A stretch of 34,505 nucleotides of DNA from Thermoplasmatales archaeon. Its GTDB lineage: Archaea > Thermoplasmatota > Thermoplasmata > Thermoplasmatales > Thermoplasmataceae. Both the position numbers and the translations under genes were made by a program. Positions 7,546 through 33,662 of the stretch are shown here, piece after piece (the stretch's first letter is position 1; each line of letters starts with the position of its first letter). The notes under the pieces were generated by a model. The model did not search any database, had not been told where the DNA came from, and saw only the letters and a program-made list of their open reading frames with translations. Location of the stretch: assembly GCA_014874365.1 (NCBI GenBank), contig JACWAH010000003.1:1-34505 (forward strand). Direction: 5' to 3'.

Positions 7546-8076
7546 TCATGGGTATTCTACAGTCACCCTGTCGCTCGATATACTGCTTTTCCCGGTCTCA
7601 TCCTCGATCACAAGTGTGAAAGGGAATTTCCCTTCCCCCGCGCTTTCAAGCGTTGCTTTCACTTTTTCAAACTCCCCCTCATCGTCATACGGCATAAGGT
7701 GTATGTATTCCTGTAGCCTGCGTATTATGCCTTCCACAGTTGTTATATAACCCGTAGATTTTTCTCCAGGGGAAATTTCTGCCCCTATCTCCGGGATATA
7801 GACAAATGCCGAGGGGGAACGGTACATCATAGTGTTTAGCGATGCTTTGTCGTTTACCTTGAAAGTAAGTTTGGTGCGTTTGCCGGGATCGCTTGGAAAA
7901 ATATTGGATTTCTTGTAAAGGCAACTGTGGCACGTAAAGGTCTGGATCATTATGTGCCCCTCCGACGGGATTTCAGTCTCGTACAGTATAGCGAAAAGAT
8001 TGGCTCCACACGACGGGCATTCTACCGTGGTAGGTTGTTCATCCGGTTCGCTATATTCCTTTCCCTCCTCACTCAT
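7546..8076 (-). CDS. ZPR1 zinc-finger domain protein
   Basis: 176 residues. One CxxC...CxxC zinc finger (C20, C23, C49, C52) with the ZPR1-type context VECPSCGANL and FTCHSCLYKKSNI, followed by the beta-rich half of the ZPR1 domain (IRRLQEYIH and later FTLVIEDETGKSSI). Eukaryotic ZPR1 binds and helps fold eEF1A; archaeal single-domain versions are conserved but less well understood, so a role in EF-1A handling is inference. It is the last gene of a minus-strand operon: its start overlaps the end of the isomerase gene by 8 bp. It converges with bax1 across 85 bp. Confidence 0.9.
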   Translation of the reverse strand: MSEEGKEYSEPDEQPTTVECPSCGANLFAILYETEIPSEGHIMIQTFTCHSCLYKKSNIFPSDPGKRTKLTFKVNDKASLNTMMYRSPSAFVYIPEIGAEISPGEKSTGYITTVEGIIRRLQEYIHLMPYDDEGEFEKVKATLESAGEGKFPFTLVIEDETGKSSISSDRVTVEYP

Positions 8077-9118
8077 ACAGGTCTATCCATGACTTTAGTG
8101 GTTCCAGTATGACTTTCCTGACTTTAACCAGATCCGAAACGGTCCTGCTTCTTGTCAGGAACATTGCAATCTTCAGATCACGGATTATCAGGGAAATTGT
8201 TTTTAGCACAGATTCTTCCGAGGCGTCAGCGCTGTTCAGAAGCGTCCTCGCGAATCCGCCTGCTGTTGCCCCCATAGAAATCGATTTTGCAAGATCGAGG
8301 CCATTCCTGAGTCCCCCGCTTCCTATTACCGGTAATCCAACCTGGGAGTATGTTATGGATGCTGGCGAAGGAATTCCCCAGTTCCAGAAGGTATTGCCTG
8401 AATTCATTTTTTCCTCGTCGTTCACACCCTTTGCCCGGTAATATTCAATGGCAGCAAACGAAGTGCCCCCAAGGCCTCCTACGTCTATTCCTTTGACGCC
8501 TGCATCCCTGAGTTCAAGGGCCGCTTCCCGGGATATTCCGTTACCTGTTTCCTTTACGATTACTGGAAAACTGGACGAAATCTCCGAAATTCGTTTCAGT
8601 ATTCCCTTCGCTCTCCGGTCCCCTTCGGGCTGAACCATCTCCTGGAGAAAGTTAAGGTGGATGTAGATCGCATTTGCTTCGATGAGCGTGATTGCCTTTT
8701 CGATCTGGTTATGCGTAAACGCTTTCCTGGACTGGTCTATGAGCTGGGGAGCGCCTATGTTAGCTATCCGCAGCGGTATCTTGAACTCTGATATGACAGA
8801 AAAAGTATCTGCGAGTTCCGGTTTCTCTATCGCTGCCCTCATGCTTCCGACTCCCATTGCTAACTTCAGTTTCTCCGCTGCGGCAGCGAGATTTCTATTG
8901 ATTTTCTTTGCAAGCTGTGTGCCCCCGGTCATGGATGAGATCACTATCGGGTAGCCCAGTTTCGCTGAAAGCAGGCTTATTGAACAATCTATCAGATCAA
9001 AATCAATTTCCGGAATCGCCTGGTGAACAAGCCTGATGTCATCCCAGAAATTGTGTTCTGATACCACCTTTTCGTTCTCTGCTATTCTTATGTGTTCTTC
9101 CTTTCTCTGTTCGATCAT
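8069..9118 (-). CDS. fni: Isopentenyl-diphosphate delta-isomerase, type 2 (FMN-dependent)
   Basis: 349 residues, the expected size. It interconverts isopentenyl and dimethylallyl diphosphate using reduced FMN, supplying the allylic starter for archaeal isoprenoid lipids. Diagnostic features are the RKEEHI N-terminus, SSMTGGT (61-67, FMN and substrate contact), HLNFLQEMVQPEGDR in the middle, and a phosphate-binding GSGGLRNGLDLAKSISMGA followed by GGFARTLL. The start overlaps the stop of the isopentenyl phosphate kinase gene by 4 bp (ATGA), placing consecutive pathway enzymes in one operon. Type 2 rather than Nudix type 1 is certain from the fold motifs. Confidence 0.96.
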   Translation of the reverse strand: MIEQRKEEHIRIAENEKVVSEHNFWDDIRLVHQAIPEIDFDLIDCSISLLSAKLGYPIVISSMTGGTQLAKKINRNLAAAAEKLKLAMGVGSMRAAIEKPELADTFSVISEFKIPLRIANIGAPQLIDQSRKAFTHNQIEKAITLIEANAIYIHLNFLQEMVQPEGDRRAKGILKRISEISSSFPVIVKETGNGISREAALELRDAGVKGIDVGGLGGTSFAAIEYYRAKGVNDEEKMNSGNTFWNWGIPSPASITYSQVGLPVIGSGGLRNGLDLAKSISMGATAGGFARTLLNSADASEESVLKTISLIIRDLKIAMFLTRSRTVSDLVKVRKVILEPLKSWIDLYE

Positions 9119-9858
9119 TCAATCACTGTTCCCTTAAATTCCTGGCTCTCCGTTTTTCTCATTCTTTCCGGGAATTTCCCGTTGATCAGGTAAACCTTGT
9201 TTGAATATCTTTTCACTTCAAGCAGGGTATCCAGCTTCAATTTCATCCCGCCGGTTGCATCTTTTCCCTTTGCTTTTATCCCTTCTGAGTGCTTCACTCT
9301 TGGTAATAGCTTTGCATCAGGATTTTCTTTAGGATCATCGGTGAATATCCCGTCCACATCGCTAAGGAAAACAACAATCGATGGCCTTAGCAATTTAGAA
9401 AGGTCCAGCATGATCTTGTCGCCGGAATATATCAGCACCTTGTTCCCACTAATGTAGGTATCACCAAACAACAAAGGAACCAGGCCTTTTTTCATATAGG
9501 CGACAGGATCTTTGCAATCCAGGGTGCCTTCTTTCATGAGGGAGGACGTCGAAAATATGTATGGTTTGGCATCCATTGAAAGGAGCAATCCTGCCACGCG
9601 GTTCGAGAGATCAATCATGTCGTTGTGAACGAGGGAGGCCCCGTAAAGCCGGTCAGGTGTAATTTCTCCCGGTATACCGTATTCGAGCGCTTTTACATGA
9701 CCGAAAGAACCGCCTCCATGGACGATAATCTTCTCTCCTTCAAATTTCAAGATTTCATTGACTATCCTGGAAGCTACCTTTTCACGGAAGTATCTGTAGC
9801 TGTTCTTCCTGGTAATGATGCTTCCTCCTATCTTGAAGAGGCTTACTGGTTTCTCCAT
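9115..9858 (-). CDS. Isopentenyl phosphate kinase
   Basis: 247 residues of the amino-acid-kinase fold. It phosphorylates isopentenyl phosphate to isopentenyl diphosphate, the kinase step of the archaeal mevalonate variants (in Thermoplasmatales the route via mevalonate 3,5-bisphosphate). Signature residues: FKIGGSIIT with Lys9; IIVHGGGSFGH (about 44-54) whose His and Gly loop bind the substrate phosphate; LSDVDGIFTDDP and GKDATGGMKLKL for nucleotide and Mg. Operon position directly before the IDI-2 gene supports the assignment over other kinases of this fold. It overlaps the upstream membrane-protein gene by one base (TAATG arrangement). Confidence 0.95.
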   Translation of the reverse strand: MEKPVSLFKIGGSIITRKNSYRYFREKVASRIVNEILKFEGEKIIVHGGGSFGHVKALEYGIPGEITPDRLYGASLVHNDMIDLSNRVAGLLLSMDAKPYIFSTSSLMKEGTLDCKDPVAYMKKGLVPLLFGDTYISGNKVLIYSGDKIMLDLSKLLRPSIVVFLSDVDGIFTDDPKENPDAKLLPRVKHSEGIKAKGKDATGGMKLKLDTLLEVKRYSNKVYLINGKFPERMRKTESQEFKGTVIE

Positions 9859-11985: not shown

Positions 11986-12507
11986 GATCTGTGGGTTGGA
12001 AGGCGTTTTTTAAGATAAGATTCAGGAGACCCAACTTTTATCAACACTGAAAGTAACTATTACGGGACAGGGAAAAGGAACGATGTTTAGAGTTGTTAGG
12101 TCTGTGAGGTGTATTTTCTTCGGCCTGTAACCCAGGGTCGTGTTACTGGGGAAAGTTCGTGGAAAAATTGTTGATCGTTATTCCTCTTCCAGTCTACCCC
12201 ATGGTTTTTGGTTCTTTTCATGAATCGTATATTTCAACCGCCGACTGTAACCCCTCCTCCCCCCTGCTAATTGCGTAAAAGACAAACTTTTCTTTCTGTT
12301 TTTTCCATATACCTTTATTTAATTCCGAGCAAAGGTAGGAGCGGAGCAGCAGTTTTGAATTGTTACCATGAGAGTATCGTTGCGGTTATATAGTATAAAA
12401 AAATTATAGCTAAGTGACAGAGGAATGCAAAGATTACCACTAATTAAGTGTTATAAGGTGAGCCTTCGCTCCTCAAGCCCAAAGTTCCGGGAAGGGGTGA
12501 ATTGAAC
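11986..12507. other. Gene-free interval with promoters
   Basis: About 520 bp with no supportable gene. It contains the far upstream part of the pepQ promoter and, on the plus strand, A/T-rich TATA-like blocks (GTATAAAAAAATTATAG near 12398-12412 and GTGTTATAAGG near 12447-12457) ahead of the CtaA-like gene. A CCCAG/CTGGG hairpin lies near 12130-12154. No tRNA arms or other RNA signature could be recognised. Confidence 0.5.
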
Positions 12508-12894
12508 TTGGATCGAATCTCGTTGCTTTACGGTCTTACAGCGGTTGTTTTGCTTGTCCAGTTACTACTTGGAGGGCTTGTGACATTCAATTTTATCGGT
12601 GTCCTGTCTCACATTATTGTTGGCTTTATCCTTTTCGCACTCGTTATAATAACGTTGATTTTCACGTTCATCTCCAAACCAGCGTTCAGACCGATCCAGA
12701 GGATGACAATTGTACTGTTTGCCCTGGTGGTAATCCAGATCTTATTGGGGTTCTATACGCTGGACTCTGGAAGCCAGGCAGTCGCCTGGGTACACTTTGT
12801 TAACGCGCTGGCCATTTACGGGCTGGTTATCTCGGGAACATTCATGACGCGGATGATGGGGAAGATGAAAGGCCCCCATCAGGAAGCTACTTGA
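12508..12894 (+). CDS. COX15/CtaA-like four-helix membrane protein (half-size)
   Basis: About 128 residues with four transmembrane helices. The pattern VQLLLGGLVTF then LSHIIVGFILFALVII, RPIQRMTIVLFALVVIQILLGF and VAWVHFVNALA resembles one half of heme A synthase: a Gly-rich first helix and a His at the start of the second and of the fourth helix (H37 and H98 counting from the TTG at 12502). Heme A synthases have eight helices made of two such bundles, but half-size archaeal forms are known, so this could be a heme-binding homodimer. The GGGGTGA ribosome site at 12494-12500 sits one base before TTG 12502 and seven before TTG 12508; I prefer the latter. Function is a family-level guess. Confidence 0.6.
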   Translation: MDRISLLYGLTAVVLLVQLLLGGLVTFNFIGVLSHIIVGFILFALVIITLIFTFISKPAFRPIQRMTIVLFALVVIQILLGFYTLDSGSQAVAWVHFVNALAIYGLVISGTFMTRMMGKMKGPHQEAT

Positions 12895-13748: not shown

Positions 13749-14696
13749 ATGTCGTGGTTGTGGGTAGAAACGGTGATCCAGCTGGTTGGAGTGCTGATCC
13801 TTGCTCCCCTTGTTACGGGGATAATAAACAGGGTGGAGGCTATTTTTGAGTCACGCCGGGGACCAAGTATATTTCAGCCCTATTACGATCTCGCAAAGTA
13901 CCTGAGAAAGGAAATCCTTATTCCGCCCGATTCTACGAGAATCTTCTATCTTGCACCATTCTTCGTATTCGGAACGTACCTCCTGATTTCGCTGGTGATT
14001 CCCGTGATACTTCCGTTTCCTGTGTATGTCTCTCCGACTGTGGACTTCCTAGGCGGCGGACTTCTCTTTGCATTGACTTCCATACTTCTCATACTGGGTG
14101 CCCTCAATTCCGGCAACAACATTTCCGCCATGGGTGCTAGCAGGTCAGCCACATTCTCTGCGTTCGCAGAACCGACCCTCATCATGGTATTCTTTGCGGT
14201 AGCGCTGATCTCAGGTACGAACAATCCGTACGTAACGAATTCTGTCCTTGCAACTTCCTTCAGCAGTTATCTGGGAATCTACCACCTGCTCTCAATGGCC
14301 GCATTCTTCATGCTTCTCCTGTTTGAGACTGGCCAGCTTCCGCTGGAGAGCCAGTCCAACATGGAACTAGGGATGATCGACGAAGCACGAGTATACGAGT
14401 ATTCCGGCCCTCACCTGTTCCTGACGAAATACTCCTCCATGATCAAGCTTTATCTCCTGGGTTCTGTCTTTCTCAACGTATTCGCATTTCCCTGGTTCCT
14501 CAGGACGGGCCTGCCCGGTTCCCTGGAGGATATACCAATAATGCTTGCCAAGTGGGGTATACTCATAGTAGCCCTAGTTATAGTGAACGAATCACTGGGC
14601 AAAGTCCGTCTCTTCAAGATCCAGGACTATCTGTCTGTCTCCTTCGCTCTCTCCATATTCTCCATTCTTACCTTCACGCTTGGGGGGATACAGTGA
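13749..14696 (+). CDS. HyfC/EchB/NuoH-like membrane subunit
   Basis: 315 residues with about eight transmembrane helices. This subunit couples the peripheral electron-transfer arm to the membrane arm in complex I and group 4 hydrogenases. Family features: ESRRGPSIFQPYYDLAKYLRKE near the N-terminus (the RxGPxxxQPxxDLxK block), LPLESQSNMELGMIDEARVYEYSG (acidic loop at the quinone-site or coupling entrance). The start at 13749 is favoured over ATG 13722 because GGTGATC (13740-13746), an exact match to the expected anti-Shine-Dalgarno target, is in the right register. First gene of a six-gene operon with overlapping ends; it overlaps the next gene by GTGA. Confidence 0.92.
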   Translation: MSWLWVETVIQLVGVLILAPLVTGIINRVEAIFESRRGPSIFQPYYDLAKYLRKEILIPPDSTRIFYLAPFFVFGTYLLISLVIPVILPFPVYVSPTVDFLGGGLLFALTSILLILGALNSGNNISAMGASRSATFSAFAEPTLIMVFFAVALISGTNNPYVTNSVLATSFSSYLGIYHLLSMAAFFMLLLFETGQLPLESQSNMELGMIDEARVYEYSGPHLFLTKYSSMIKLYLLGSVFLNVFAFPWFLRTGLPGSLEDIPIMLAKWGILIVALVIVNESLGKVRLFKIQDYLSVSFALSIFSILTFTLGGIQ

Positions 14697-15313
14697 TATT
14701 CAGCGAACTGGAAGGCATCATCGGGGTTCTGATGCTCGCATCCACACTTGTTGTCCAGATACGGTCATATATAAGACCAATGACAAACACCGTTGTTACG
14801 CAGTCCATTCTTCTGGCATCCATAGCGATTATAATCGGGATTAAGGAAAGTTCCATCGACCTGATAATTTTGGCAATACTCATAATAGTCCTGAGGGGCG
14901 TGCTGGTGCGTTATGTTCTAAACAGGAGACTTCCGAAAGCCAGGATGTTTGTGAGAGAATATTCACACGGGGTAACATCTGTAACGCTTGCAAGCGTTAT
15001 CGTTCTCATAGCTTCATTCCTGGTCTTCAGGTATGCATTTTACCCCAGTGTTCATGACCCGCTGGGAGCAATAGGTCTCTCCATACTCTTCCAGGGGCTC
15101 CTCCTGATCTCTACAAGGAGGAACAGTTTTGCCCAGTTCATAGGATATGTCGAGGAGGAAAACGGGATAATATTCCTGAGCCTCGCAATAATCCCGCTTC
15201 CCCTGCTCATAGAGATAAGCGTCCTGCTGGACGTTCTGGCGCTGGTAATAGCAGGGACGGTCCTGGTCACGGATAATGTGGAGCACACCAGGGTGGAGGA
15301 GTTGATGGGATGA
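14693..15313 (+). CDS. HyfE-like membrane subunit (NuoK-related)
   Basis: 206 residues, about six helices, starting at GTG 14693 inside the GTGA overlap with the previous gene and preceded by GGGGGATACA. The open frame extends further upstream but that part lies over the upstream subunit. The first half resembles NuoK (helices around LLASIAIIIGIKESSIDLIILAILIIVLRG), the second is the HyfE-type extension ending in YVEEENGIIFLSL and LLIEISVLLDVLALVIAG, typical of hydrogenase-4 HyfE rather than of true NuoK (about 100 residues). It ends in an ATGA overlap with the next gene. Confidence 0.85.
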   Translation: MIFSELEGIIGVLMLASTLVVQIRSYIRPMTNTVVTQSILLASIAIIIGIKESSIDLIILAILIIVLRGVLVRYVLNRRLPKARMFVREYSHGVTSVTLASVIVLIASFLVFRYAFYPSVHDPLGAIGLSILFQGLLLISTRRNSFAQFIGYVEEENGIIFLSLAIIPLPLLIEISVLLDVLALVIAGTVLVTDNVEHTRVEELMG

Positions 15314-16653
15314 ACTACACACTAATGATCATAATACTGGTGCCTGCCGTTCTTTCCCTTGGCTATTTTTCGCGCCACTTCAGGGAGATTACGGTGGTCT
15401 CAGGAGCTATCACAGTGTTTCTTTCACTGTATATCCTCCTGACCGACATGCGGGATTCCGGGACATTTTTTGTTGATTATCTCTCCAGATACCTCATTGC
15501 GACAATATCCTCGATATACCTTCTTTCAGTCCTGTTCGGACTCGGATATCACCACAAGATCGGGGAGTCCGTAAACATGAAGCTGCACCTTTCCCTCACA
15601 GACCTGTTTGTCTCCACAATGCTCTTCTCCGTCACGATAAACAATTTCGGACTCCTGTGGTTTGGAATCGAGGCAACGACAGTTTCCAGTGCGCTCCTTC
15701 TTGTAATTGAGAAAGAACCGCTGAAGATCGAGGCGGCGTGGAGATATGTGATCATCGTCTCTGCAGGCCTGACCATAAGCCTTGTCTCAGTGGTAACAAT
15801 GTACTATGCCTTCGGGACCCTCACCATAAGCAGGATCATTTCATCCGGAGGTGCTCTTTCGGAACTCACAGAAATAGCTGCAGGTGCCGCTCTGGTGGGA
15901 TATGGCACCAAGGTCGGGCTGTTCCCGATGCATGCATGGCTTCCCGATGCTCACAGCGAAGCCCCATCCGAGGTTAGTGCCATGTTTTCCGGGGTATTGC
16001 TGCCCGTCGCTTTATATGCCCTCTACAGGGTTTATGAGGCAACCGCAGATCCAAGGATAACAACTCTCTACATGGTCGTCGCACTTATCACCATGGTATT
16101 CGCGGCACTGATCCTTCCGTCACAGAGGTTCTACAAGAGGATGTTTGCCTACTCCACCATGGAGAACATGGCAATGATACTTATCGGCCTCCTTGCCGGA
16201 GGAATAGGGGTTACCGGTGCAATCATCCTCATGGTGTCGCATGCCTTTGGAAAAGGAGGTGCCTTCTATTCTTCAGGCAACGTGCTTGAAACGTACGGCA
16301 CAAAGGCCATCTCCGGGATCAGCGGCATGAGGGAGAGGATGCCGTTCACATCGGTATCTCTTATACTGTCGTCCCTTGCAGTGACCGGCGCACCACCATT
16401 CGGGACATTCCTGGGGGAATTCCTGATACTTGCGGCACTGTACGCATCGGGATACGCTATCCCCTTTGTCCTGGCACTGGTGTCGCTTTTCATAGCCTTC
16501 GCAAGCATTAACTTCCACGTATCAAGAATGGTATTCTTCGGGAGATCCGAAAAGAGGAGTGAACCCTCGATCCTGCAGCGTTCTGTGGCAATTTTCTCGG
16601 CCGTTGTTCCTCTGATCATACCGGTGATATTCGTAATGGGGGGTGTAATCTGA
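15310..16653 (+). CDS. HyfF/NuoN-like antiporter-type proton channel subunit
   Basis: 447 residues with about 13-14 helices. It belongs to the Mrp antiporter-like family that forms proton channels in complex I and group 4 hydrogenases. Key residues expected in these channels are present: a Glu in WFGIEATTVSSALLL, and Lys in GTKVGLFPMHAWLPDAHSEA, which also carries the diagnostic HxWLPDAH. It starts in the ATGA overlap with the HyfE-like gene and is directly abutted by the large-subunit gene (TGA then ATG). One of two such channel proteins in the operon. Confidence 0.92.
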   Translation: MNYTLMIIILVPAVLSLGYFSRHFREITVVSGAITVFLSLYILLTDMRDSGTFFVDYLSRYLIATISSIYLLSVLFGLGYHHKIGESVNMKLHLSLTDLFVSTMLFSVTINNFGLLWFGIEATTVSSALLLVIEKEPLKIEAAWRYVIIVSAGLTISLVSVVTMYYAFGTLTISRIISSGGALSELTEIAAGAALVGYGTKVGLFPMHAWLPDAHSEAPSEVSAMFSGVLLPVALYALYRVYEATADPRITTLYMVVALITMVFAALILPSQRFYKRMFAYSTMENMAMILIGLLAGGIGVTGAIILMVSHAFGKGGAFYSSGNVLETYGTKAISGISGMRERMPFTSVSLILSSLAVTGAPPFGTFLGEFLILAALYASGYAIPFVLALVSLFIAFASINFHVSRMVFFGRSEKRSEPSILQRSVAIFSAVVPLIIPVIFVMGGVI

Positions 16654-17871
16654 ATGAACCCTGGAGACCAGATAACTGGCCGAATGAGATCGGGAGAGAA
16701 GCAGTTTGTATTGAGAGGCTACGGGAACCCGTTATGGAGTGAACTCAGGAGCGGGGAGGAAAAACGCGAAGATTTTATGATATGCGACGGCAGATATGGG
16801 GAGATATCTCAGGGATCGGATGTCTTCAACCTTGCTTATGGTCCTTCCACAGGAGGGTTGGAGGAGTCAGTCAGGTTCAACATCTACACTTACGGTGAGA
16901 GAATCCTCTCCATAGTTGCGGAGCCACACTACAAGGATCGCAGGATCGTAATGACCGGTACAGACCCGGTAACTGCACTGCTCAGGATCGAGAGGATAAA
17001 CGGGTCTTATTCTCCATTCTACTCAACACTGTTTCTCACAGCCCTTGAATCCCTCGGTGACGCTGGAAACGATCCGGATCTGGGCTACGCCAGGATCCTG
17101 ATGAACGAGACTGCTAGGATGGTCGATCACCTTCATGTCATCGGAAGACTTGCTGAAGGTGCAGCCCAGAGAGTGGCATCCCACCAGATCTTCGCACTGC
17201 GGGAAGACCTGTTGAGGATAGTGTCAGCGAGGTTCGGGCACCGGTACTTCTTCGGAGTGAACGGATACGCAGGCCTCACCAGGAAGGTTGATTTTAAGGG
17301 GATCTCCGTGGAAATTGAGAGGGTGGCCAGCCAGTTCAGGGAAATATGGCTAAAACTGGAGGAATCCAGGATTTTTGTGGACAGGATCCAGATGACGGCC
17401 ACAGTCAGGAAGCCATGGCTGCTTGGTCCTGCAGCCCGTGGAGCCGGTTACAGAACAGATTCAAGGATAAGCAGTAACGGGCTTCCATATGGGGATCTGG
17501 ATATGCAGATTCCTATCCACGAATCAGGAGATTCCCTGTCCCGGGCCCTGGTCAGGAAGGACGAAATAGCTGAGTCCGCATCCATTATAAGGGCCGTTGA
17601 AGGGCTGATCAGGCAGGTACCGGATGCCAGGGAAATTACTGAAAAGTCATTCGAGGGCGAGTATACCACCAGGACGGAGGCACCCGGCGGTGATGCGGTA
17701 ATGTGGATAGCGGTGGCAAAGTCACGAATGGAGGCCTTTTACCTGAGGCCTCCCTCTATCCAGAATCTTGCGGCATTCTGCAGCGGAATCAGCGGAAACG
17801 TACTCACGGACTTCACGTTCGGGTTTGAAAGCCTTGGAATCCATGTTTCGGAGTTGGGAGGATACCTGTGA
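16654..17871 (+). CDS. HyfG/NuoCD-like large subunit lacking Ni-ligand cysteines
   Basis: 405 residues, shorter than HyfG of E. coli-type hydrogenase-4 (about 550). It aligns with [NiFe]-hydrogenase/complex I catalytic-type large subunits (YGPSTGGLEESVRFNI; NETARMVDHLHVIGRLAE; DFKGISVEIERV; LVRKDEIAESASII). The N-terminal nickel motif RxCGxC is replaced by RINGSYS (114-120; Cys to Asn116 and Tyr119), and the C-terminal DPCxxC by ESLGIH near residues 396-401. It therefore cannot bind a Ni-Fe centre. The HRGIE block of both hydrogenases and complex I is also altered (YKDRRI). This is what defines energy-converting hydrogenase-related (Ehr) complexes, whose substrate is unknown. Confidence 0.88.
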   Translation: MNPGDQITGRMRSGEKQFVLRGYGNPLWSELRSGEEKREDFMICDGRYGEISQGSDVFNLAYGPSTGGLEESVRFNIYTYGERILSIVAEPHYKDRRIVMTGTDPVTALLRIERINGSYSPFYSTLFLTALESLGDAGNDPDLGYARILMNETARMVDHLHVIGRLAEGAAQRVASHQIFALREDLLRIVSARFGHRYFFGVNGYAGLTRKVDFKGISVEIERVASQFREIWLKLEESRIFVDRIQMTATVRKPWLLGPAARGAGYRTDSRISSNGLPYGDLDMQIPIHESGDSLSRALVRKDEIAESASIIRAVEGLIRQVPDAREITEKSFEGEYTTRTEAPGGDAVMWIAVAKSRMEAFYLRPPSIQNLAAFCSGISGNVLTDFTFGFESLGIHVSELGGYL

Positions 17872-18497
17872 GTTCATGGATGTTCCGCGGACTGAGGAAA
17901 GGGAGGGTTACCACAGCATTTCCCTGGAAACCGCCTGAATCGGTACCGGTGTGGACCACCCGGCCCGTATGGAAGGGGGAGGGAGAAGTCTCGTGCCCTG
18001 CGGATGCCATTAAGGAGCACAGGGTCGACATAGGCAGGTGCATATCGTGCGGATACTGTTCCAGCGCATATGAGCCGAACGGATCTGTTGATCTTTCCAT
18101 CGTGAACGGGAAGGAAAGGATCTTTGCAAGATCATATCACGTCTATCTTTTCGATGCAGGAACATGCGGATCATGCAACCTGGAAATAAAGTCCCTGACC
18201 AACCCGGTGTACGATATGAACAGGCTTGGCATTTTTTTTGCGAGCACACCGAAGCATGCTGATGCAATCCTCGTGTCTGGGATAATGGCTGAGGGTATGA
18301 GGGAACCGCTCAAGCGTGCAGTGGAAGCCCTGCCTGAACCAAGACTGGTGTTTGCCATTGGAGCCTGTGCAATATCCGGTGGAATACTTGGAAAAGCAAT
18401 CACGGAAGTGGTAGATGCAGACGTTATAGTTCCCGGGTGCCCTCCAAACCCGTTCACGATCCTGAACGCACTTCTGAAGTCTAGGGGGGACTCATGA
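17868..18497 (+). CDS. Fused ferredoxin (HyfH-like) and small subunit (HyfI/NuoB-like)
   Basis: 209 residues, GTG start in a GTGA overlap. N-terminal part (1-75) is a reduced NuoI/HyfH ferredoxin: Cys43 in SCPADAI plus Cys58, Cys61, Cys64 in RCISCGYC can bind one [4Fe-4S] cluster, while the cysteines for the second usual cluster are missing. The C-terminal part (about 90-209) is the NuoB/HyfI small subunit with all four ligands of the proximal cluster: Cys100 and Cys103 (AGTCGSCNLE), Cys167 (GACAISGG) and Cys191 (PGCPPNP). The AGxCxxCxxE spacing is of hydrogenase type; complex I NuoB has adjacent cysteines (CC). The two subunits are normally separate genes. Confidence 0.88.
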   Translation: MSSWMFRGLRKGRVTTAFPWKPPESVPVWTTRPVWKGEGEVSCPADAIKEHRVDIGRCISCGYCSSAYEPNGSVDLSIVNGKERIFARSYHVYLFDAGTCGSCNLEIKSLTNPVYDMNRLGIFFASTPKHADAILVSGIMAEGMREPLKRAVEALPEPRLVFAIGACAISGGILGKAITEVVDADVIVPGCPPNPFTILNALLKSRGDS

Positions 18498-20374
18498 TAA
18501 TCATACCGTTTCTGCTCTTCCTTTCTCTTGCCCCGGTTATAGCCAACGTGTTTGGTGTAAAGCATTCCTACAGAACCGGGACAATTACCTTCTCGGTGGT
18601 TGCTGTCATGTCCCTTTACCTGATGCTGGACGGCTACATGTCATATCATGCTGTTGGCCAGTACGTCGCCGTAGGCATTGATCCGCTCACTTCCGGGTTC
18701 CTCATGATCCTCTCCACAGTGTGGGCACTGGCCTCCCTCTATTCCACAGAATATGACCAGAACTCAACATCAAACAGCCTGACTTACAACACGGCAATGT
18801 TTGCTATGGTGATCCTCCTGTTTTCAAGGTCATTTCCCGTTTTCCTTTCGGCGTGGGAAACAATGACCATTTCAGGATACTTCCTCATAGGCATGAGGAA
18901 GATAGTCGGTCCGATCCCTCCCTACGTATTCCTCGTCTATGGAGAACTCAGCACACTGTTCATAATTGCCATGGGATCTGCCATATTCTTCCAGACCGGT
19001 TCAATGATCTTTGTTCACGGGCCGTATAACGAAATACTTCTTTTCCTTGGAATAATGGGCTTCTTCATCAAGATGGGGGTGATGCCATTCCATATCACGG
19101 AATGGCTGCCAATTGCACATGGCAACGCTACGACGAACGGCTCCATCCTATTCAGTGCTACCATGACGACTGCAGCGGTTTATTCCATACTCCGCTTCGT
19201 CCTTCTCGCTGAGCCGGGGATATTTCTCGGATCTCTGCTCATGGGCATAGGAGCATTTTCCCTCCTTTTCGCATCGATCTATTCCGCCTCTTCCGAGCAT
19301 GTGAAGATGCTTCCCGCATACAGCACCATTGAGAACGGGGGAGCTATGCTGATCCTCCTTGGAGCTTTTATTATTGCATCTGACTCCGGATTCCCAGATA
19401 TCGCAGCGTTTGCGCTCGCAGGTCTCATGGTTTTCGTCCTCGCACACTCTCTGGCCAAGTGCGGTCTTTTCATGTTCTCAGGCATAATGGAAAAAGCCTC
19501 GGGGAGCCCGGAAATCAAGGATTATCATGGGGGAAGCAATTCCACGTTTTACGGAGCAGGTGGAGTCCTGAATTCATTATCCCTGTCGGGAATGCTTCCA
19601 CTGGGTGGTGGAATCGGTGAGTGGATGCTTCTTGAAACGCTATTCATCCTGTCAATTATCGGAAACTCCCCCCTGTCTCTTCTCTCAACGGTGGTAGGGG
19701 CGGCTGCTGCGCTTGGAGGAGGAATATCAATAATATCCATGACTAAGATATTTGGTTACGGTTCACGGGGTGCCCACGAGGGAAAACGCAGGGAAGGAAC
19801 AATGCGTACTGCACTGTTCCTGGCAGGCATCATGGTGTTTCTGACCGGTATTCTCTCTACGTTCTACATAATGGCTATCAACCCTCTCGTGCAGGAGTTC
19901 ACCGGGGTCGGAACCCTCGGCGTGATTTCAGGGCTTCTCATAATTCCAGATGGATTCCTCGTAACTTCCCACAGTCCGGCGGGTCTGTTTGGCGTGGTAT
20001 CTCCTTTCTTTGTTGCACTGTTCATTGCACTGTTCTCCGGCTTTATGATCCTTATCGGAAGAAAATTCAGGAAGAGAGAAGTCAGTACATGGAATGGCGG
20101 AATACTGGAGGAGACCACCCTTAATTCGTTTGCCTATGCAAACTCGCTCAGGCTGACAATGAAGCGCCTTTATCTGACAAGAGAAGAGAGGGAAGGAAAT
20201 CTGTACTCTGAGAAGACCTTTGATGCGTTCTGGCTGGCCGTGGTATTCCTGTCAAGGAAGACTGTGGAATTTTCCAGGGCTATGGGAAGAGCGGTGATGA
20301 ACAGCAGCCTTGCCGCATATGTGTTCTACATAATGATCGCATTCTTCCTGGTGATGATCTATGTGGTTTCCTGA
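18494..20374 (+). CDS. HyfB/NuoL-like antiporter-type proton channel subunit
   Basis: 626 residues, about 16 helices, the size of HyfB and of NuoL. Channel residues present: Glu in LSAWETMTISGYFL and Lys in KMGVMPFHITEWLPIAHGN. A C-terminal hydrophilic stretch with a final helix (residues about 535-626) resembles the extended end of HyfB/NuoL-class subunits. Starts in an ATGA overlap with the fused ferredoxin-small subunit gene and is the last gene of the operon, ending 26 bp from the convergent cyclophilin gene. With the HyfF-like protein it gives the complex two candidate ion channels. Confidence 0.92.
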   Translation: MIIIPFLLFLSLAPVIANVFGVKHSYRTGTITFSVVAVMSLYLMLDGYMSYHAVGQYVAVGIDPLTSGFLMILSTVWALASLYSTEYDQNSTSNSLTYNTAMFAMVILLFSRSFPVFLSAWETMTISGYFLIGMRKIVGPIPPYVFLVYGELSTLFIIAMGSAIFFQTGSMIFVHGPYNEILLFLGIMGFFIKMGVMPFHITEWLPIAHGNATTNGSILFSATMTTAAVYSILRFVLLAEPGIFLGSLLMGIGAFSLLFASIYSASSEHVKMLPAYSTIENGGAMLILLGAFIIASDSGFPDIAAFALAGLMVFVLAHSLAKCGLFMFSGIMEKASGSPEIKDYHGGSNSTFYGAGGVLNSLSLSGMLPLGGGIGEWMLLETLFILSIIGNSPLSLLSTVVGAAAALGGGISIISMTKIFGYGSRGAHEGKRREGTMRTALFLAGIMVFLTGILSTFYIMAINPLVQEFTGVGTLGVISGLLIIPDGFLVTSHSPAGLFGVVSPFFVALFIALFSGFMILIGRKFRKREVSTWNGGILEETTLNSFAYANSLRLTMKRLYLTREEREGNLYSEKTFDAFWLAVVFLSRKTVEFSRAMGRAVMNSSLAAYVFYIMIAFFLVMIYVVS

Positions 20375-28916: not shown

Positions 28917-29129
28917 ATGCCAAAAACCATCACCATTAAGAAGTCTGTATACGATGAATTAATAGGATTCAAAAAGGAAAACGAAAGCTTCAGTGACCTT
29001 CTTGACAGGCTGGTCAAATCTCAGAGCAAGAATGAACTCCTTTTGTCCTTGAGAGGGAGCGTCGTATTCGAGAATAAGGAGAAACTTCTCAGAGATAATG
29101 AAAAGAAACGGTGGGAGAAGAGGAATTGA
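28917..29129 (+). CDS. vapB: VapB-type antitoxin (archaeal DUF217-like)
   Basis: 70 residues: an N-terminal ribbon-helix-helix-like segment (KTITIKKSVYDELIGFKKENESFSDLLDRL) and a basic-acidic helical tail (LRDNEKKRWEKRN). The KTITIxxxVYxxL opening is typical of archaeal VapB antitoxins. Its stop overlaps the toxin start as TTGA, preceded by GGGAGAAGAGGA. Directly after copy 4 of the 41-bp repeat. Confidence 0.9.
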   Translation: MPKTITIKKSVYDELIGFKKENESFSDLLDRLVKSQSKNELLLSLRGSVVFENKEKLLRDNEKKRWEKRN

Positions 29130-29503
29130 TTCTTCTCGACACAGACGTCATCATAGAGGTGCTGGACAAGAAGTCAGATAAAGGACAGGCACTTATGCTA
29201 AAAATCATCGAAAGTGGAGAGGGATACTGTACTAGCTCAGTGAACATGCACGAGGTGCTTTACGGCATAGATAAGTATTCCAAAGATTCTCACTTGGTAC
29301 TGCAGATTCCTACACTGGGGTACAATAAGAATGACAGTGAACTTTCTGCTGCTCTTGAATTAAATGCCGAAAGAAAAGGAAAATCTGTTCCGAGAATGGA
29401 TGCGATTGTGGCGTCGATCGCAATTAACAATGGATGTTCACTTTACACTTTGGATGAACATTTTGAGGTTTTCATGGATAATGGTCTAAGACTGTTCAGA
29501 TAG
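29126..29503 (+). CDS. vapC: VapC-type PIN-domain toxin
   Basis: About 125 residues from TTG 29126, which overlaps the antitoxin stop and has an AGAAGAGGA ribosome site; a GTG at 29111 is an alternative. All four PIN acidic positions are present: LLDTDVIIEVLD, SVNMHEVLYG, PRMDAIVASIA, LYTLDEHFE. Stop is only 6 bp before repeat copy 5, so the repeat lies at the very end of the transcription unit. Confidence 0.92.
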   Translation: MILLDTDVIIEVLDKKSDKGQALMLKIIESGEGYCTSSVNMHEVLYGIDKYSKDSHLVLQIPTLGYNKNDSELSAALELNAERKGKSVPRMDAIVASIAINNGCSLYTLDEHFEVFMDNGLRLFR

Positions 29504-30853: not shown

Positions 30854-30950
30854 AAAATTCAAATCTATAAGAGACGTAAAATATTTAGGTTGTCGCCACT
30901 TTATGCCAGTTAACCGTTAAATGTTTATGCGGCAATATAATCATTCTTTC

Positions 30951-31187
30951 ATGGTCAAAACCACAATTAACCTGGATAAAGATATATATGCTGAAATAGT
31001 CAAAGAATCCATAGAGAAGTATGGCAGCACCAAGAATATGTCAAAGATCATTAATCAGCGCCTTAGCAAAAGGAAACCGGGAGCAAAGAAAAGGGGCAAT
31101 CGAGTCGTGTTCAAGGTCAGGGGGGACCTCGCACTGTTGGATGTAGACAAAGAGATAAGAAAAGGTTGGGAAGGGAGAAGCAAATGA
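30951..31187 (+). CDS. vapB: VapB-type antitoxin
   Basis: 78 residues from ATG 30951 (the frame extends to 30921). KTTINLDKDIYAEIVKESIEKYGSTKNMSKIINQRL is a ribbon-helix-helix start, followed by a basic middle (SKRKPGAKKRGNR) and a toxin-binding end (LALLDVDKEIRKGWEGRSK). Overlaps the PIN toxin gene by ATGA. An A/T-rich CAATATAATC is about 15-20 bp upstream. Confidence 0.88.
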   Translation: MVKTTINLDKDIYAEIVKESIEKYGSTKNMSKIINQRLSKRKPGAKKRGNRVVFKVRGDLALLDVDKEIRKGWEGRSK

Positions 31188-31591
31188 CTACACTGGTCGA
31201 TACAAACGTTCTGGTTTATGATGCTATCGAGAACTCCCCACATCATGTCCGTGCAAGCGATATTATCGATGGGTCTGAAGACCCGCTAATAAATTCACTT
31301 TCAATTGTTGAACTTGGCTTTGTTCTTCCAAGGTATGGTATTGAAAATGACGGGGTTAGCGCAAAACTTGACGAATTATTGCATAGTGATTATTTCACAG
31401 TTTCATGGATATCTGAAAGGATGCTTGAGGATGTATCTGCATTCATAGTTGAAAACGGCCTCAGTTTCAGGGATTTCAATGACTGGATAATCGCTTTCGA
31501 TGCACATTCAAGAAATGTGCCTCTGGTTACCTTTGATAAAACCTTATCCAAAAAATGCAAACTAGTAGGTATAGATGTAATTGAGGGATAG
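31184..31591 (+). CDS. vapC: VapC-type PIN-domain toxin
   Basis: 135 residues from ATG 31184 in the ATGA overlap. PIN acidic residues: LVDTNVLVYDAIE, SIVELGFVL, FRDFNDWIIAFDAH, LVTFDKTLSKK. HxxA region (SPHHVRASDII) typical of archaeal VapC. Completes the third VapBC pair in the island; sequence differs clearly from the other two, so these are separate acquisitions rather than duplications. Confidence 0.92.
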   Translation: MTTLVDTNVLVYDAIENSPHHVRASDIIDGSEDPLINSLSIVELGFVLPRYGIENDGVSAKLDELLHSDYFTVSWISERMLEDVSAFIVENGLSFRDFNDWIIAFDAHSRNVPLVTFDKTLSKKCKLVGIDVIEG

Positions 31592-32168: not shown

Positions 32169-33662
32169 ATGGCACTCGTCAGTAGTATAAGTATTGAAAA
32201 TTTCAGGTCCGTCAAAAGCTTGGATATGAAATTTCATCGTCTTAATGCTTTAATTGGCCCGAATAATGCTGGAAAATCAAATGTTATGCGAGCCTTGGAA
32301 ATAGTTCTAGGAGAGTCTTGGCCATCAAATCGTATTATAAATGATAACGATTATCTCGATAGAGACAGAGCAAATAGAATAAAAATTCAGGTGAGGTTTG
32401 TAACCCCATTTTCTGGGCCTAGGAACTCTGGACAAATCTTTGGATTTAGATTTGAATGTCAGGACGATGACTCCTCTTTTGTTGCGTTGGATTCCGCAGG
32501 AAACCCATTGAAATACCCTGGAAGCAGCACAATTGTCAAAGTTTCTCAGGAGATGAGAGATGAAGTTCCATTGATTTTTGTTGACATAGATAGGCAATCC
32601 TCACAACAAGTCAGAGCGACCCAATGGACTTTGTATGGTAAAATTCTCAAGTTTCTTGGGAGTAGGATACCAGAAGACAAGAAGGAACAGTTCTTGAAGA
32701 CTGTGATAAATGCGTTCAATTCCGAAATATTCAACACATCACCAGGTTCTGATCTCAAATACCTCGAAGAACAGCTAGAGAACTCCATAAAGGACTACAC
32801 TGGATTTGACCTAACATTGGAACTGTCTACTTTAGATCCTGTTGAAGCAATAAAGAATGTCAGGCCATACTTCAGAGAAGGGATCAACCCCAGGAGGTAC
32901 GATCCGGAAGAGATGGGAGCAGGGACACAGAGTGCATTATCTGTGTCAATAGCCAAGGCGTATAGTGAGATTGTTCGAAAAAGCGTTATATTGGCCATAG
33001 AAGAGCCTGAATTACATTTTCATCCTCAAGCATGTAAGAACTTTTATAACAATTTGATGCAGCTTTCTGAAAATGGTCTCCAAATCATATATACCACGCA
33101 TTCGCCATATTTCGTTGATATCTCAAAGTTCGAGAGTCTTCATTTGATTAGGAAAAGAAATTCTTCAACAACAATTGAGTCTGCACTGACTCTGTTGAAT
33201 TCGGGCATTCAACAAAATCGAATTGTCGCCAAATTTAACGAGGGTGTGAACCAGTCTCTTTTCGCTGATCGTGTTGTACTGGTCGAGGGGCCAGATGATG
33301 AAATCGCATGCAGAGCGATGCTTGAGAGAGTAAGTTTTGATATTTACAAGAACAATGTTTCCGTGGTGTCTTGCGGGGGGTTGCAAAATATACCTTCTAT
33401 AGCCAGGATACTACAGGTTTTGAAAATAGACACATATGCATTTGTCGATGAAGACCCAGGAAATTCCAAGACGGCGACTATTGTGGCAGGTATTAAGAGC
33501 ATATTGGGTAGTGATTCGGTGTTTATTCAAGCTCCCGATCTGGAAGGCCTCTTTCAAAAACAAGGCAAATTTAACCAAGCCTCCGCTTTAGCTTTCTTTA
33601 ACAGTTTTCAGGGTAATCCACCTAAAATATATTCTGACCTAAAATCGAAATTGACCACCTGA
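32169..33662 (+). CDS. OLD-family ATPase/TOPRIM nuclease
   Basis: 497 residues. ABC-type ATPase: Walker A GPNNAGKSN (30-38), signature-like MGAGTQSALSVSIA (249-262), Walker B ILAIEEPELHFHPQ (274-287), H-loop TTHSPYF (309-315). A TOPRIM domain follows: LVEGPDDE (371-378, Glu373 metal ligand) and FVDEDP (425-430). Overcoming-lysogenization-defect nucleases of this type act in phage and plasmid defence. No UvrD-like helicase gene follows, so it is a class 1 OLD rather than Gabija GajA. It ends soon after the TOPRIM core (KIYSDLKSKLTT) and is shorter than typical OLD proteins, so the C-terminus may be trimmed. Confidence 0.9.
   Translation: MALVSSISIENFRSVKSLDMKFHRLNALIGPNNAGKSNVMRALEIVLGESWPSNRIINDNDYLDRDRANRIKIQVRFVTPFSGPRNSGQIFGFRFECQDDDSSFVALDSAGNPLKYPGSSTIVKVSQEMRDEVPLIFVDIDRQSSQQVRATQWTLYGKILKFLGSRIPEDKKEQFLKTVINAFNSEIFNTSPGSDLKYLEEQLENSIKDYTGFDLTLELSTLDPVEAIKNVRPYFREGINPRRYDPEEMGAGTQSALSVSIAKAYSEIVRKSVILAIEEPELHFHPQACKNFYNNLMQLSENGLQIIYTTHSPYFVDISKFESLHLIRKRNSSTTIESALTLLNSGIQQNRIVAKFNEGVNQSLFADRVVLVEGPDDEIACRAMLERVSFDIYKNNVSVVSCGGLQNIPSIARILQVLKIDTYAFVDEDPGNSKTATIVAGIKSILGSDSVFIQAPDLEGLFQKQGKFNQASALAFFNSFQGNPPKIYSDLKSKLTT

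Follow-up and report, generated by a model that had tools for sequence, protein, structure and literature searches.

An Ehr-type complex without nickel ligands in a Thermoplasmatales archaeon, possibly a ferredoxin-linked proton pump

Energy-converting hydrogenase-related (Ehr) complexes, as defined by Marreiros et al. 2013 and summarised in PMC6728331 and PMC6349859, lack the nickel ligands of [NiFe] hydrogenases and stand apart from both complex I and the group 4 hydrogenases, and the function of the class is discussed as unknown (PMC10284858, PMC4378227, PMC6728331). Yelton et al. 2013 (PMC3750248) describe, from acid-mine Thermoplasmatales, a “putative group 4 hydrogenase” which has neither nickel motif and for which another function was considered possible. 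As far as the available parts of the reports go, this complex and FAD_0579-0584 of Ferroplasma acidiphilum (PMC5473848) are apparently of the same operon type, and from the same archaeal group, as the operon analysed here, and tests of maturation genes, quinone ligands and cluster cysteines such as those made in this study do not appear in them. The present operon lies at positions 13749-20374 (+ strand) of a stretch of 34,505 nucleotides from an acid-loving Thermoplasmatales archaeon (Thermoplasmataceae), hereafter the window (GCA_014874365.1, contig JACWAH010000003.1, positions 1-34,505, forward strand). The original prediction for this locus, an Ehr complex related to hydrogenase 4, overstated its novelty, since a nickel-motif-less “hydrogenase 4” has been known in this archaeal group since 2013 (PMC3750248).

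The operon is compact, with six genes in the order HyfC-E-F-G-(H-I fusion)-B, and adjacent genes overlap or abut (most overlaps are of 4 bp). It encodes a membrane machine of the complex I kind whose ancestry lies in hydrogen-forming enzymes. NCBIfam and Pfam matches assign the products to a NuoH-type anchor, HyfE, HyfF, a 49-kDa/NuoD-type large subunit, a NuoB-type small subunit and HyfB, which confirms the gene set and order first proposed; the HyfC start at 13749 also agrees with the start of its relatives. The genes are:

13749..14696 (+): HyfC/NuoH-like membrane anchor, 315 residues; Pfam NADHdh 1e-30, E-channel and loop-3 residues kept
14693..15313 (+): HyfE-like membrane subunit, 206 residues, GTG start; NCBIfam hydrogenase 4 membrane subunit 8e-13, length equal to that of its relatives
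15310..16653 (+): HyfF-like antiporter-type proton-channel subunit, 447 residues; NCBIfam HyfF 1.8e-144, channel Glu/Lys conserved
16654..17871 (+): HyfG/NuoD-like large subunit without nickel ligands, 405 residues; Pfam Complex1_49kDa 3.5e-19, alignments, AlphaFold2 (AF2) model, Foldseek
17868..18497 (+): HyfH-HyfI fusion small subunit with two [4Fe-4S] sites; Pfam Oxidored_q6 4.5e-22, hydrogenase-length CxxC motif
18494..20374 (+): HyfB-like antiporter-type subunit with C-terminal extension, 626 residues; NCBIfam HyfB 7.6e-131, ion-path residues

Alignment of the large subunit with HycE/HyfG from E. coli and MbhL from P. furiosus places the four nickel-ligand positions at N116, Y119, H397 and E400. 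The RxCGxC motif is replaced by R114-I-N116-G-S-Y119 and DPCxxC by G395-I-H397-V-S-E400, so that all four nickel cysteines (C68, C71, C374 and C377 in the counterparts) are absent, as had been read earlier from the strings RINGSYS and ESLGIH. The protein ends five residues past the last ligand position and therefore has no maturation peptide. HypD was found in none of the 37 family genomes searched, that of the window included, and is present in nine genomes from other families of the order. A positive control within the order is given by two true group 4 hydrogenases (L062 and L064) with RVCGIC, DPCMSC and a C-terminal extension, whose genomes carry HypD. Neither the RxCGxC/DPCxxC ligands nor the combination of HypD and C-terminal peptide that goes with group 4 [NiFe] hydrogenases is thus seen for the window complex. 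Of 25 archaeal relatives, 18 have tryptophan at ligand position C3, and on this ground a metal site put to a new use is excluded for the family. Compared with E. coli formate hydrogenlyase/hydrogenase 4 (HycE/HyfG) and the membrane-bound hydrogenase (MBH) of P. furiosus, the complex is alike in its subunits, in the CxxC-type proximal cluster and in the proton-carrier glutamate, but lacks all four nickel ligands, the HRGIE block and the C-terminal extension. The glutamate (E71) occupies the position of MbhL Glu21, the proton carrier in MBH (PMC11228991), and is invariant in all 25 archaeal relatives. The AF2 model of the large subunit (predicted template modelling score 0.80) matches the complex I 49-kDa subunit, HycE and MbsL in Foldseek, and the predicted fold is the one these proteins share; confidence is low precisely in the beta1-beta2 loop and at the C-terminus, and the shape of the cavity is not readable from the model.

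The organism also encodes a complex I of its own (L067), with 11 subunits, no NuoEFG/NADH module, a tandem-cysteine NuoB and both quinone ligands (H38 and Y87). Its NuoB, NuoD, NuoH and antiporter-type subunits are homologous to those of the window complex, which differs in H38/Y87, in the tandem CC and in its conservation pattern. Where Nqo4 has H38 and Y87, the window large subunit has E70 and G117, while the organism's NuoD has H and Y, and the window small subunit has a CxxC and no tandem CC of the N2 cluster. An argument against ordinary quinone chemistry had previously been drawn from the altered HRGIE block. The block is indeed altered (DRRIV in the window, with only the R invariant among the 25 archaeal relatives), but the argument is weak, since the block is common to hydrogenases and complex I and says nothing specific about quinone; judged from the alignment, E70/G117 speak more strongly against the usual quinone chemistry of complex I. 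In the maximum-likelihood tree, all Ehr sequences form one clade (support 100/99) apart from hydrogenases, proteins like those of the membrane-bound sulfane sulfur reductase (MBS) and complex I, and the window sequence lies in it together with actinobacterial, proteobacterial and Deinococcota Ehr. Approximately unbiased (AU) tests reject a forced grouping of Ehr with complex I (p=0.016) and a single clade of Ehr and MBS (p=0.031). Clustering with complex I had been named beforehand as grounds for giving up the original prediction; neither the tree nor the AU test finds it, and a complex I paralogue is ruled out by the missing H38/Y87 together with that test. The Ehr assignment stands on the nickel-less large subunit, the separate clade and the AU tests. 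Homologues of HyfB, C, E, F, G and I occur in one operon, and the same subunit set, loss of nickel ligands and separate clade are given for Ehr in the cited summaries of Marreiros et al. 2013, so the window complex is almost certainly a non-hydrogenase Ehr complex. That it is cleanly neither hydrogenase, complex I nor MBS narrows the functional question.

The substitutions are genuine. An independent assembly (L028), whose large subunit is 84% identical, carries the same type of substitutions, and in a comparison of five genes between it and the window the ratio of nonsynonymous to synonymous substitution rates (dN/dS) is 0.02-0.12; the window genes are under purifying selection, and chance or sequencing error is thereby excluded. 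An Ehr-type small subunit was found in 64 of 77 family genomes (counting strong matches). The relatives examined repeat the order C-E-F-G-HI-B, with a few genes at four loci having escaped gene picking: the apparent loss of HyfF (L047, L058 and L059) and of HyfE (L028) is most likely such an artefact, and HyfF was recovered in the genome of L047. More widely, the Ehr sequences considered here span archaea and bacteria (Thermoplasmatales, Campylobacterota, Actinomycetota, Deinococcota and Pseudomonadota). The Thermoplasmatales/Desulfurella subclade differs from other Ehr in its altered HRGIE block (K/D-x-R) and an invariant acidic residue at E392, and the archaeal members in a one-cluster ferredoxin domain fused to HyfI. 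Ehr is absent from the near-complete genomes G008, G091, G092 and G093 and present in G026 of the same genus, and genomes with and without the operon inside one genus make the question of its function testable.

The fused small subunit has an N-terminal [4Fe-4S] site (C43, C58, C61 and C64) and a proximal one (C100, C103, C167 and C191), and the full set of eight cysteines is present in 31 of 31 family members. The ferredoxin half thus has the cysteines for one complete [4Fe-4S] site, not two (an AF2 model of the fusion from ten sequences, with a mean predicted local distance difference test score of 54.7, was too poor for use). The original prediction that the proximal-cluster cysteines and the proton channels remain holds for both, the ion-path Glu/Lys of HyfF and HyfB being kept, as do its assignment to the Ehr class and its remark that the electron acceptor of that class is not known. 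No conserved neighbour gene that could serve as donor enzyme flanks the operon in the relatives' loci examined, which argues against a dedicated donor, and the genome holds four loci for 2-oxoacid:ferredoxin oxidoreductases of the pyruvate:ferredoxin oxidoreductase (POR) type. Taken together, the retained clusters, the missing linked dehydrogenase, the four POR-type loci and the retained ion-path residues point to a ferredoxin-linked pump. The electron donor would be soluble and of low potential, with reduced ferredoxin the likeliest candidate; it would feed the N-terminal [4Fe-4S] site, from which electrons would pass to the proximal cluster and on to a small organic acceptor, most likely (mena/thermoplasma-)quinone, reduced in the former NiFe cavity, now presumably lined by N116, Y119, H397, E400 and the proton carrier E71. 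This reduction would shift the beta1-beta2 loop and, via HyfC, drive proton translocation in HyfE, HyfF and HyfB. The complex is probably redox-active and linked to ferredoxin. Quinone is the simplest candidate acceptor, since a quinone pool must exist in an organism whose complex I has H38/Y87; we would give it somewhat less than an even chance, and a quinone site, if present, would be of a new type. For the proposal as a whole, in which donor, direction, acceptor and pumping are what we infer, the probability is roughly 0.38.

Several observations weigh against this ferredoxin-linked pump. H38/Y87 are absent, and the organism has a canonical complex I for its quinone pool already. Around the place of the lost metal, close relatives differ in their residues (N/C, H/Y/L and W/H/Q/F) more than is expected of a catalytic site, and the large subunits diverge far faster than NuoD of the same genomes (mean identity 0.42 vs 0.76). 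Bacterial relatives, moreover, keep the complex without a proximal cluster.

The most probable of the alternatives is that the conserved task of this Ehr clade is ion translocation without electron delivery to the cavity, in which the peripheral arm would bind a ligand or sense redox state and gate the channels, the clusters being optional or regulatory. Over 45 genome pairs, the mean identities of the large subunit, small subunit and anchor are 0.42, 0.50 and 0.60 for Ehr; complex I of the same genomes gives 0.76, 0.85 and 0.66. Conservation of the anchor exceeds that of the large subunit in 45 of 45 Ehr pairs and in 1 of 45 complex I pairs, with the caveat that the pairs are not independent and that some Ehr pairs may be paralogues, which would lower all Ehr values but not explain the reversed order. 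True hydrogenases show the same pattern as complex I (large/small/anchor 0.72/0.63/0.52 and 0.86/0.88/0.76). All four proximal-cluster cysteines are lost in Desulfurella/Hippea (L033-L036), in Mycobacterium branderi (L071) and in Allomeiothermus silvanus (L095), requiring at least three changes on the tree, and ion-path residues persist in these relatives. The Desulfurella/Hippea small subunits (L033:9082-9540, L034:4611-5066, L035:9082-9540 and L036:9198-9653) are also without the ferredoxin domain and N-terminal cluster; a search of these genomes found no second Ehr small subunit, and the operons are under purifying selection (dN/dS 0.02-0.17). In the HI fusions of the M. branderi plasmid (L071:9090-9884) and of A. 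silvanus pMESIL01 (L095:5815-6687), the N-terminal cluster cysteines are kept and the proximal four lost. While all of this favours translocation without electron delivery, the conservation of the eight cysteines in 31 of 31 members argues for redox use in the family of the window, and we consider this explanation of the clade's task unlikely. Its extension to the whole class is also rather doubtful, if a little less so. On that view, Ehr includes machines with a dead electron path, namely those of the three lineages above, in which nickel site and proximal cluster have both gone and the anchor and antiporter subunits remain conserved; the shared task would be ion translocation that is gated by a ligand or needs no cofactor, with the window complex as a cluster-keeping form. 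The possible redox-free working of part of the class is nonetheless a source of interest, as the reversed conservation and repeated cluster loss raise the question of whether redox chemistry in the cavity is needed for coupling in this superfamily, which bears on the mechanism of complex I. The reversed conservation of anchor and large subunit, and the loss of the proximal cluster on several occasions with ion-path residues kept, may be new in this analysis; no earlier description of the cluster loss was found in the literature searched, which did not include the founding Marreiros et al. 2013 paper, and it may be known already. On a Streptomyces plasmid (L096:6001-6378), the proximal motif of an Ehr-like small subunit is partly degraded (SRNGC). 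Directly downstream of one cluster-less operon lie EtfB-EtfA-FixC-FixX-like genes (L034:7100-10546), and genes of similar sizes follow the operon in L036.

A second alternative is a sulfane-sulfur (polysulfide) reductase like MBS, in which the proximal [4Fe-4S] cluster would itself reduce polysulfide. Thermoplasmatales and Desulfurella live with sulfur, which counts in its favour. As in MBS, the nickel ligands and H38/Y87 are lost; MBS retains two of the four nickel-type cysteines, and its mechanism depends on a proximal motif three residues shorter and one Fe without a Cys (PMC7684303). P. furiosus MBS (6U8Y) is likewise complex I-like, but has the shortened motif, the two nickel-type cysteines and a Na+/H+ module, none of which is found in the window: its proximal motif is of full hydrogenase length and CxxC type with both Cys present, unlike the shortened motifs of the MBS-like L063 and L068 of the same order, no nickel-type cysteine remains, and the operon has no Mrp-type Na+/H+ subunits. 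The Glu21 equivalent, E71, is kept in the window and absent from MBS and complex I, and an Aciduliprofundum-like genome (G040) holds both Ehr and an MBS-like complex. With the AU test against a common clade added, a polysulfide reductase is very unlikely, and motif length, missing cysteines and that test are the grounds for rejecting an MBS-type enzyme.

A chain in which a molybdenum formate dehydrogenase donates electrons to Ehr, as proposed for other members of the class (PMC6349859), is highly improbable here. One molybdopterin oxidoreductase is encoded in the genome, but on another contig; the operon has no conserved flanking gene in the loci examined, and five Ehr genomes (G003, G005, G015, G020 and G031) have no PF00384 match, which rules out an obligatory formate dehydrogenase partner.

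A working [NiFe] hydrogenase or other metal enzyme with substituted ligands can practically be discounted: H397 and E400 could in principle hold a metal and the overall fold is kept, but the family lacks HypD, the maturation peptide is missing and the tryptophan at C3 of most relatives cannot bind a metal. A natural comparison set is offered by G040 (1,486,778 bp), in which Ehr (L059), a true group 4 hydrogenase (L062, HypD nearby) and an MBS-like complex (L063) occur in one genome. On plasmid AZO_p2 of Azospirillum lipoferum (L073:1-9074), a group 4-type cluster with all four nickel cysteines adjoins an aldehyde:ferredoxin oxidoreductase gene.

Elsewhere in the window, an amino-acid-kinase-family gene adjoins a gene for a dehydrogenase-like protein dependent on flavin mononucleotide (8069-9858, - strand), likely an isopentenyl phosphate kinase and a type 2 isopentenyl diphosphate isomerase of the mevalonate pathway. 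A short membrane protein (12502-12894, +) has COX15/CtaA similarity just under the Pfam cut-off. Two small gene pairs (28917-29503 and 30921-31591, +) resemble VapB-VapC modules of antitoxin and PIN-like protein, and an AAA ATPase with an OLD-like TOPRIM domain (32169-33662, +) represents an OLD-family nuclease with a possible role in phage defence.

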